Assembly (NCBI GenBank): GCA_902524595.1
Contig: CABZDS010000002.1
Location: 66,793 to 130,792 of the forward strand
Length of the DNA stretch: 64,000 bases
Direction of reading: 5' to 3'
DNA from: an uncultured Pelagibacteraceae bacterium
GTDB taxonomy: Bacteria > Pseudomonadota > Alphaproteobacteria > Pelagibacterales > Pelagibacteraceae
Under the pieces are notes generated by a model. That model was not told where the DNA came from, did not search any database, and saw only the letters and a list, made by a program, of their open reading frames with translations. Made by a program: the position numbers and the translations under genes. Positions 21,579-28,258 of the stretch are shown piece after piece; within the stretch, counting starts at the first letter, position 1, and each line of letters starts with the position of its first letter.

Positions 21579-23402
21579 GTGGAACGAATAATTACTAAAT
21601 CATTTGCAAGATTAATGGGTCGAGGTATCCATCGTGGGTTTATCACCCATGAAGAGCTAAATAAATCACTCGGTAAGAGAAATTTATCAAGTGAAAATTT
21701 GGCACAAGCATTTATCCATATACTTGATGAAAATATAGTCTTAGTCGAAAAAAAATCTGACTATAAAGTTTTAAGAAAAAAAGATGCTTCCTCAAAAGAT
21801 GAGGGAAAAACCATAGAAAAAAGTGACGACCCAATTAGAATGTATTTGAGGGAAATGGGTGGGGTTGAATTGTTATCTAGAGAAGGAGAGATAGCAATTG
21901 CAAAAAGAATTGAGGCAGGCAAAGATGTAATGCTAAATGCTTTATCCCAAAGTCCTATTACTGCACAACAATTTTTTGATTGGGATATCAAATTACAAAG
22001 TGATGAAATTTTGGTTAGAGAAATAATTGATATAGATACAAATTATATGGACGATGATGATAACAGTAATGGGTCTAAAAAAAAACAAGAGGAAGATCAA
22101 TCACAAGAAGAAACTAATAACTCAGAAGAAGACGAATTTAACCCTACTTTAGCTGCAATGGAGACAGAGATTAAGCCAAAGGTATTGCAAACTGTCCATA
22201 ATCTAACAAAAGATTATAACAAATTAATTAAATACCAAAAAGAAAAATTGGATTGCGTACTTTTAGCAAAAAAATTTTCATCGTCAAAAGAAAAAAATTA
22301 TCAAAAAATAGTTGAGGATATTTTAGAAAATATAAAATCCCTTCAGTTATCTCCATCTGTTTTGGAGGAATTAGTTCAAAAACATTATGCAGAAAATAAA
22401 AAAATAGTATCATTAGAAGGAAATTTATTAAGATTAGCTTTAAATTCAAAGATTTCACGTGATGAATTTATTAAATTTTATATTGGTAACGAGATTAATC
22501 CAAATCTTAAAGAATTTTTAGACACGAATGAAGTTTGGAAAAAATTTTTTCAAAAAAATAAAAATGAATTTAAAAATATAAGAGATAGGTTAGTTGAAAT
22601 AAGTAACAAACTTGGAATTTCGGTTACAGAATATAAAAAAATGGTTAGTCGTATCCAAAAAGGAGAAAAAGAGTCAAGAATTGCAAAAAAAGAAATGGTT
22701 GAGGCAAATTTAAGATTAGTCATTTCAATAGCGAAAAAATATACTAATAGAGGTCTTCAGTTTCTTGATCTAATCCAAGAAGGAAACATAGGTTTAATGA
22801 AGGCAGTTGATAAGTTTGAGTACAGGAGAGGATATAAATTTTCTACTTATGCAACTTGGTGGATAAGGCAGGCAATCACTAGATCAATAGCAGACCAAGC
22901 AAGAACAATTAGGATTCCTGTTCATATGATTGAAACAATTAATAAAATTGTAAGAACGCAGAGATTAATTTTAAGTGAGTTTGGAAGAGAAGCTACGCCA
23001 GAAGAACTAGCTAAAAAATTAAGAATGCCTCTTGAAAAAGTTAGGAAAGTTTTAAAAATATCAAAAGAGCCTGTATCTCTTGAAAAGCCTGTTGGCGACG
23101 AAGAAGATAGTAGTCTTGGAGATTTTATAGAAGATACAAAAGCCTTAGCTCCATTAGAACAAGCAATAAAATCTAATTTAAGTGAAGCAACAACCAAAAT
23201 TTTATCAACACTTACACCTAGAGAAGAAAGGGTCTTAAGAATGAGGTTTGGTGTAGGAATGAATACAGATCATACATTAGAAGAAGTGGGATTACAGTTT
23301 TCTGTAACTAGAGAGAGAATTAGGCAAATTGAGGCAAAAGCCCTAAGAAAATTAAAACACCCAAGTAGATCAAAACAACTAAAAAGTTTTCTAGAAAGCT
23401 AG
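21579..23402 (+). CDS. rpoD: RNA polymerase primary sigma factor (sigma70)
   Basis: Directs transcription of most genes. Region 1.1 is at the N-terminus, an acidic stretch rich in D/E/S/N around 155-185 leads into the non-conserved region, and the core is clear: region 2 with [23 protein letters not shown] and [15 protein letters not shown] (shown in outline), region 3, and region 4 ending in [25 protein letters not shown]. The only fitting start is GTG at 21579-21581. At 607 residues it is typical of alphaproteobacterial RpoD. Its stop is the TAG at 23400-23402, whose last G is also nucleotide 1 of the downstream tRNA-Val. Confidence 0.96.
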
Positions 23403-23476
23403 GGCCGTTAGCTCAATAGTAGAGTACTGCATTGACATTGCAGGGGTAGTTGGAGCGTAACCAACACGGCCCACCA
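23402..23476 (+). tRNA. tRNA-Val (anticodon GAC), atypical D- and T-loops
   Basis: A full cloverleaf of 75 nt with encoded CCA. Stems: acceptor GGGCCGT/ACGGCCC (perfect), D stem GCTC/GAGT (one G-T), anticodon stem CTGCA/TGCAG (perfect) with loop TTGACAT, and T stem GTTGG/CCAAC (perfect). The anticodon GAC reads valine GTC and GTT codons. The D-loop AATAGTA has a single G instead of GG, and the T-loop AGCGTAA replaces the near-universal TTCRANY; C56 and a purine at 57 remain. Nucleotide 1 is the final G of the rpoD stop codon, so it must be cut from rpoD mRNA unless an internal promoter is used. Confidence 0.85.
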
Positions 23477-24443: not shown

Positions 24444-24520
24444 GGGCCTGTAGCTCAGTTGGTTAGAGCAGTACACTCATAATGTATTGGTCCCAGGTTC
24501 GAGTCCTGGCGGGCCCACCA
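24444..24520 (+). tRNA. tRNA-Ile2 (anticodon CAU, expected lysidine at the wobble base)
   Basis: A standard 77-nt tRNA with encoded CCA: acceptor GGGCCTG/CGGGCCC, D-loop AGTTGGTTA, anticodon loop CTCATAA and T-loop TTCGAGT. A CAT anticodon could be Met or Ile2. The acceptor stem has C4-G69 and C5-G68, known determinants for the lysidine synthetase TilS, and resembles E. coli ileX more than its elongator tRNA-Met. I therefore call Ile2, reading ATA, a common codon in so A+T-rich a genome. Its normal elbow loops contrast with the tRNA-Val 1 kb upstream. Confidence 0.85.
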
Positions 24521-27837: not shown

Positions 27838-28194
27838 GCCAGATAAATGACTTATCACTTTAATTTAATTAAAGAGGAAAGTCCGGGCTCTACAAAGACA
27901 CAGTGCCAGTTAACTGCTGGCGGGGGAAACCCTAGGGAGAGTGCCACAGAAAATAAACCGCCTTATCAAGGCAAGGGTGAAAAGGTGCGGTAAGAGCGCA
28001 CCGGCTAAGTTGGCAACAACTAGCGCATGGAAAACCCCACTGGGAGCAAGACTGAGTAGAGATGACATTGTTAGAAATAACTAAAAGCAGTCTTTGGCTA
28101 GTCATCGGGGTTAGTTGCTTGAGCTTTAAAGTAATTTAAAGCCTAGATAAATGATAAGTTTAAAAGACAGAACCCGGCTTATAGTTTATCTGGC
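27838..28194 (+). ncRNA. rnpB: RNase P RNA (bacterial type A)
   Basis: Catalytic RNA of RNase P, which forms the 5' ends of tRNAs. The ends pair as helix P1: GCCAGATAAA at 27838-27847 with TTTATCTGGC at 28185-28194. The universal cores are present: GAGGAAAGTCCGGGCT from 27874, GGTAAGAGCGCACCG in the middle, and AGACAGAACCCGGCTTATAG from 28165. About 357 nt is typical of type A RNAs in this group. Mature ends are estimated from P1. Confidence 0.95.
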
Positions 28195-28258
28195 AATTAA
28201 TTAAAATTTATCCAAAATTTCAAAAAATTTTTACAACATATCAATAAAATATTAACTA

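Follow-up and report, generated by a model that had tools for sequence, protein, structure and literature searches.

The elbow of canonical tRNAs is held together by contacts between the D- and T-loops: G18-Psi55, G19-C56 and T54-A58 (PMC4810234; PMC7912444). In the parts of the literature drawn on here, tRNAPyl and the type II tRNAs of mammalian mitochondria are described as lacking G18, G19 and TPsiC, and are working tRNAs without the usual 18-55 contact, while in tRNASec base 16 of the D-loop also touches base 59 of the T-loop, C16/C59 in E. coli and U16/U59 in eukaryotes (PMC7609411). Mitochondrial tRNAs whose loose elbows are read by synthetases (PMC7033119) are a different case. A tRNA-Gly isoacceptor of Staphylococcus aureus, as described in the portion of the paper used here, is a bacterial tRNA with non-standard features that is favored for a non-ribosomal task (PMC4810233).

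The locus described here, a tRNA-Val(GAC) gene of an uncultured member of the Pelagibacteraceae, belongs to a set of SAR11 tRNAs that share with the canonical design the cloverleaf, a 7-base T-loop, G19 and C56, a purine at 57, and normal stems and anticodon arm, but have A18/G55 and, in one of two forms, also A54/T58, A60 and a paired 16-59. tRNAPyl and the mitochondrial type II tRNAs, by contrast, lose G19/C56 too and use other contacts, whereas the SAR11 cloverleaf is standard and G19/C56 are retained. The contact reported in tRNASec indicates that a 16-59 geometry is possible; that tRNA keeps the canonical loop contacts, however, whereas the SAR11 16-59 bases are Watson-Crick, co-vary, and occur in ordinary tRNAs with a short variable loop (PMC7609411, in part). 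The staphylococcal tRNA-Gly is likened by its description rather than by details of its loops, and differs in that the SAR11 change recurs in sole decoding tRNAs (PMC4810233). In the open-licence literature, nothing was found on such an elbow in SAR11 or on A18-G55. Suppressor tRNAs with altered D- and T-loops were reportedly selected by the Steinberg group, who are said to have described a “purine trap” at 18-55 and alternative combinations at both 18-55 and 54-58; those selections are laboratory-made, while the SAR11 A18/G55 is natural and recurrent. SAR11 bacteria are very abundant in the ocean. A study of SAR11 tRNA signatures, the consulted parts of which make no mention of G18, the elbow, the T-loop or position 55, discarded sequences whose secondary structure was unusual (PMC3937112).

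The tRNA-Val gene and its setting

The DNA analyzed (the window) is a stretch of 64,000 nucleotides. Its tRNA-Val(GAC) gene quite probably encodes a working elongator tRNA with an alternative elbow, in which A18/G55 would replace the G18/Psi55 contact and the outer G19-C56 pair would be retained. The features concerned are listed below, with Sprinzl numbering of the loops as assigned in this analysis.

21579..23402, + strand: rpoD (sigma factor RpoD); its stop codon ends on the first base of the tRNA
23402..23476, + strand: tRNA-Val(GAC) with encoded CCA and altered elbow (type II, defined below), from ARAGORN, Rfam RF00005 and the R1 model
23415..23421, + strand: D-loop AATAGTA, read against canonical Val(GAC) loops as A14 A15 T16 A18 G19 T20 A21; A18 replaces G18 and G19 is retained
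23417, + strand: base 16 (T), which co-varies with base 59 in comparisons
23418, + strand: base 18 (A); by comparison, A18 occurs only with G55 across 250 distinct tRNAs
23432..23438, + strand: anticodon loop TTGACAT with anticodon GAC, identical in every listed type II Val copy compared
23454..23460, + strand: T-loop AGCGTAA, read as A54 G55 C56 G57 T58 A59 A60 (canonical TTCRANY)
23455, + strand: base 55 (G), by comparison the Psi55 position of other tRNAs
23459, + strand: base 59 (A), on comparative grounds the partner of base 16 in a proposed tertiary pair

ARAGORN calls tRNA-Val(gac) exactly at 23402-23476 with CCA encoded, and the same interval scores 53.6 bits against the Rfam tRNA family (RF00005; gathering score 29), placing it within that family. 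With the R1 model the score in the window's own genome is 103.3 bits, the window sequence having been part of model building. All 21 stem pairs form, one of them a G-U in the D-stem: 7/7 in the acceptor (GGGCCGT/ACGGCCC), 4/4 in the D-stem (GCTC/GAGT), and 5/5 in each of the anticodon and T-stems. The variable loop is GGGTA, and the tRNA carries A73 along with its GAC anticodon. A preliminary description of this DNA had reported the paired stems with one wobble, the encoded CCA, the normal anticodon loop, the two unusual loop sequences, and standard loops in the neighboring tRNA at 24444-24520 (anticodon CAT), and was accurate in all of these; its naming of that neighbor as tRNA-Ile2 rather than Met is putative. 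It overlooked the joint change at 18/55, the co-variation of 16/59, and the same elbow in other tRNAs, some of them sole decoders.

Among the contacts that define a canonical elbow, bases suited to G19-C56 are present and would presumably pair, while positions 18 and 55, normally G with U or Psi, are A and G, and positions 54 and 58, normally T and A, are A and T. Position 48 is A, so that with A15 the usual 15-48 pair is changed too. The other 26 of the 27 ARAGORN tRNAs in the window and the examined stretches of its own genome have canonical loops, and Phe and His are both canonical there; Rfam adds a 28th match, to a truncated copy of tRNA-Met. Neither a second Val(GAC) nor a Val(TAC) was found in this genome, which is 88% complete, so that it cannot decide the matter alone.

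The tRNA starts at the third base of the rpoD stop codon, and RNase P would therefore cut right where the rpoD reading frame ends; across 16 loci the distance between rpoD and the tRNA differs by a few bases. A gene for a bacterial class A RNase P RNA (27839-28197; 289 bits) lies 4.4 kb downstream of the altered tRNA. Truncated 5' copies of tRNA-Met(CAT), which resemble an insertion scar, lie 1.7 to 3.8 kb upstream of the intact gene at G000:C8:15385-15455 (L050) and G003:C1:838387-838444 (L301).

Coupled positions in the D- and T-loops

Two forms of the altered elbow are distinguished here: type I has A18/G55 with T54 and A58 retained, and type II also has A54/T58, A60 and a paired 16-59. Among 250 distinct tRNAs, with base 18 counted from the fourth D-loop base, 217 have G18/T55, 33 have A18/G55 (20 Val, 9 Phe, 3 His and 1 Tyr), and none is mixed; the loci were partly picked with A18/G55 queries, so the altered share is biased and is not a frequency, a bias that does not explain the zero count of mixed types. 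A decayed copy with T56, in genome G157, lies outside this count. The preliminary description had proposed that a G19-C56 contact could survive, and both bases are indeed retained in 33/33 distinct altered tRNAs, in which they would still be able to pair. With the inner contact swapped and the outer G19/C56 face retained, the change is a coherent one. Its further suggestion, that A54/T58 takes the place of T54-A58, holds for 19/19 distinct type II Val and breaks down in one His variant (L384), where A18 occurs with G54/G58; the 54-58 combination is thus not strictly A-T.

In 19/19 distinct type II Val and 2/2 distinct type II His, the 16/59 combination is T-A or A-T. None of the 11 distinct type I tRNAs listed has a Watson-Crick combination there, and among canonical tRNAs the proportion is only 4/39 for Val(GAC) and 36/180 for those with D-loops of 7-9 bases. 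On a maximum-likelihood tree built without the 16/59 columns, Fitch reconstruction gives 4 coupled switches of the 16/59 state (2-5 over 60 bootstraps), with a mean of 6.5 and a minimum of 2 in shuffles, trees of 70 columns being weak. One pair of copies (L275 and L176) differs, outside the acceptor stem, only at bases 16 and 59. Bases 26/44 also co-vary in Val (A-G or G-A), as expected of a normal tRNA core.

In the mechanism proposed, A18 and G55 would take over the part that G18 and Psi55 usually play in joining the D- and T-loops, and the outer G19-C56 pair, which is recognized by other molecules, would stay. In tRNA-Val the reverse-Hoogsteen 54-58 pair would go from T-A to A-T, and an extra 16-59 contact, T-A or A-T, would be added. 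The altered tRNA-Val would be charged with valine and would read GUC and GUU.

Another possibility is a different geometry, an antiparallel kissing helix in which D-loop bases 16-18-19 meet T-loop bases 59-58-56, with A18 paired to T58 and not to G55. The pairs that this needs (T16-A59 or A16-T59, A18-T58, G19-C56) would all be of Watson-Crick type in type II Val. In type I tRNAs (Phe, Tyr, one Val and one His), however, A18/G55 occurs with A58, so the 18/55 change is possible without T58, and the His variant L384 has A18 with G58; this arrangement is accordingly considered unlikely.

Conservation, distribution and probable exchange between altered and canonical forms

When 397 genomes of the family were searched with the altered tRNA-Val, 181 gave a match, a figure that takes in tRNA-Lys hits in other genera. 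In the window's own genus (g1), 144 of 151 genomes match and 7 do not, and at least 65 of the 151 sampled have exactly the same 75 bases; these counts were made by hand from the search table and the loci read, about half of the 144 were not compared base by base, and no fewer than five canonical copies and one fragment are among the 144. The 65 comprise 30 loci checked in full, 32 matches at 100% over the whole tRNA, and G284, G003 and G035. Genomes G131, G222 and G338 of this genus gave no match even at E 10. Five named Pelagibacteraceae genomes (single-cell or metagenome) also carry the altered tRNA-Val. A comparison with the tRNA-Val(GAC) genes of other SAR11 genomes had been recommended by the preliminary description.

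In diverged copies (genera g1, g3, g4, g10 and g12) the loops are retained, apart from the 16/59 exchange and single changes, which occur in three Val copies (L165, L180, L181), and the stems are compensated. Across 14 distinct copies, both members differ between copies in 13 of the 22 named pairs, the proposed 16-59 included, while 99.7% of cells remain paired.

In genus g4 the intact altered form is present in 12 of 169 genomes and a decayed copy in one, with five more genomes at threshold having canonical loops; in genus g3 it is present in 2 of 23, and one g3 genome (G092) has an intermediate Val in which A18 and G55 occur with T54 and A58 retained. Of 289 genomes sampled across the class, G000 and G003 alone exceed 100 bits, the next best scoring 76 bits; 25 of the 28 other loci were readable, and all 25 are canonical, as are all 11 loci from the 14 genomes searched in the order's second family. 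In most canonical Val(GAC) genes of alphaproteobacteria the D-loop is AGYGGTA, the variable loop GGGTC and the T-loop TTCRANY.

Canonical Val(GAC) is also found in five g1 genomes, in four of them (G300, G109, G350 and G105) downstream of rpoD and in the fifth (G268) adjoining a tRNA with anticodon CAT. Only the T-arm, the D-loop and base 48 distinguish the G300 gene from that of the window. On an rpoD tree of 61 rows, computed from roughly the final 1260 bases of the gene (L055 dropped as too short), canonical copies are scattered or nested among altered ones, the labels needing 7 changes vs 19.4 in shuffles; in this labeling L057 is scored canonical though ARAGORN finds no tRNA-Val there, and L060 is scored as having none though a canonical copy lies further downstream. 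The scatter is read as several replacements, which fits one shared role for the two forms.

Fragments of the 3' part of tRNA-Val occur at about 1211-1266 of L177 (G051) and about 2870-2915 of L179 (G182), adjoining genes that resemble, on reading of their translations, a glycosyltransferase and an asparagine synthase. These neighborhoods have the look of surface-polysaccharide regions, as if tRNA-Val marked the edge of a variable island. Spread by viruses was considered and rejected: the exact pattern of the altered tRNA has no match in viral contigs, a set from which records near the window were possibly excluded.

It is conceivable that mobile elements drive the change: the 3' half would be swapped when an element integrates at the tRNA gene or moves from one genus to another, and the D-loop would follow. 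Such 3' fragments beside polysaccharide-like genes would be in keeping with this, as would the Val sequence that the g12 genomes G023 and G048 share with the g1 genomes G026 and G294, and the occurrence of type II Val copies at several genomic sites. This would account for spread, but not for the coupled changes at 18/55 and 16/59 or for their presence in Phe, His and Tyr, and the viral contigs, with the reservation just given, hold no copy; as the driving cause, mobile elements seem improbable.

Other altered tRNAs and a probable role in translation

A18/G55 occurs in Val(GAC), Phe(GAA), His(GTG) and Tyr(GTA). The Phe tRNAs of G003 and G027 and the Tyr tRNA of G040 are type I, with T54 and A58 retained, as are one Val and one His; in genome G005, no A18/G55 is present among the tRNAs found. 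The Phe search gave some match in 370 of 394 genomes, and 32 loci were read. Seven Phe D-loops are AGGAGTA, with G15-G16 and then A18, and the Phe gene of G003 is identical in at least 41 g1 genomes (G003 included) among the matches listed.

In the 30 loci around an altered Phe gene (L356-L385), the nearby His gene is type II in 18 (one a variant, with T-loop GGCAGAA), type I in one and canonical in 10, with no His found nearby in the remaining locus. The 18 type II His genes were missed by ARAGORN and found by a stem scan, so genomes of this kind may be annotated as being without tRNA-His.

The most informative genome is G003, a single contig, 99% complete, with 33 Rfam tRNA matches: 31 ARAGORN calls, one His that ARAGORN missed (L290), and one truncated Met. 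Phe (A18/G55), His (AATAGTA/AGCGTAA) and Val(GAC) are each represented there by one gene, altered in all three cases, and no other His or Phe gene is present among the tRNAs found; the His gene (L290:4960-5037), with the full type II elbow, scores 50.6 bits with Rfam and is not called by ARAGORN. Since a complete genome thus has no His or Phe gene found other than an altered one, the A18/G55 elbow very likely functions in translation, so far as gene content can indicate.

The T-arm GTAGG-AGCGTAA-CCTAC is identical in some Val and His tRNAs, which could be explained by gene conversion and would lower the number of independent origins. There is at least one origin per isoacceptor, unless gene conversion moved loops between genes.

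For tRNA-Val itself the case is less direct. G003, G040, G005 and G027 each have a canonical Val(TAC), so Val(GAC) may be dispensable; no normal Val(GAC) was found among the tRNAs of G003, G040 and G027, of which only the G003 list covers all 20 amino acids, those of G040 and G027 being without an Ala or Ile call. A specialized tRNA-Val acting outside translation is therefore imaginable, kept off the ribosome or EF-Tu by its elbow, with a precedent in the cell-wall tRNA-Gly of staphylococci as far as that source was drawn on (PMC4810233). Val(GAC) could be spared for such a task in the four genomes with canonical Val(TAC). In the complete G003 genome, however, the sole His gene found has the same elbow and the sole Phe gene found has its 18/55 half, and canonical Val(GAC) replaces the altered gene at the same site in related species, as fits one shared role; a function outside translation is thus improbable.

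A decaying or non-functional gene, or a sequencing or assembly error, can be dismissed: although one decayed copy is known, in G157 (L164/L281), with mismatched acceptor and T-stems and T56, at least 65 genomes share the identical 75 bases, the five named genomes carry the altered form as well, and across species the stems are compensated and the loops nearly fixed, so that the uncompensated mismatches and poor conservation of a decayed gene are not what is seen. The preliminary description had favored selection on a functional, altered tRNA over decay. This view is supported by the identical copies in many species, the compensated stems and the nearly fixed loops, and further by the same-site exchange with canonical copies and by the lack of a second Val(GAC) among the tRNAs found in G003, G040 and G027.

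TruB

Psi55 is made by TruB. A single TruB profile, whose control matched in 14/14, found no TruB in 17 genomes tested from three genera (0/10 g1, 0/5 g4 and 0/2 g2): G003, G004, G018, G027, G036, G044, G001, G015 and nine other g1 genomes. It found TruB in 15/15 others (2/2 g12, 1/1 g5, 2/2 g9, 5/5 of family f2 and 5/5 other alphaproteobacteria). Loss of Psi55 may have loosened the constraint on the elbow, an always unmodified U55 being perhaps easier to give up, and the absence of TruB in g1, g2 and g4 may thus have eased the swap. TruB loss is neither required nor sufficient: G040, of g12, has TruB and yet has altered Val and Tyr, and the window's genome, with no TruB match, has only one altered tRNA among 27.

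Implications

The preferred reading is an alternative elbow in a working tRNA. By this account the A18/G55 swap would have arisen repeatedly in SAR11 tRNAs (Val, Phe, His and Tyr), including sole decoders of their codons. The broader proposal, toward which we lean, is that SAR11 evolved a second self-consistent elbow more than once: a coupled change from G18-Psi55 to A18-G55 in four or more isoacceptors, sole decoders among them, with a Val/His redesign that adds 16-59. Loss of TruB would have opened the way, and G19-C56 would still let the ribosome, RNase P and other partners read the tRNA.

One consequence is practical: genomes with type II tRNA-His can look His-tRNA-deficient under ARAGORN. 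More generally, G18-Psi55 is among the most conserved of tRNA tertiary contacts, and here a natural, recurrent and apparently functional substitute is found in free-living bacteria. Such an elbow is a direct test of what the elbow needs and of why Psi55 and TruB persist elsewhere, and also of how two coupled bases cross a fitness valley. For SAR11, the recurrent A18/G55 swap suggests a second working design of the tRNA elbow.
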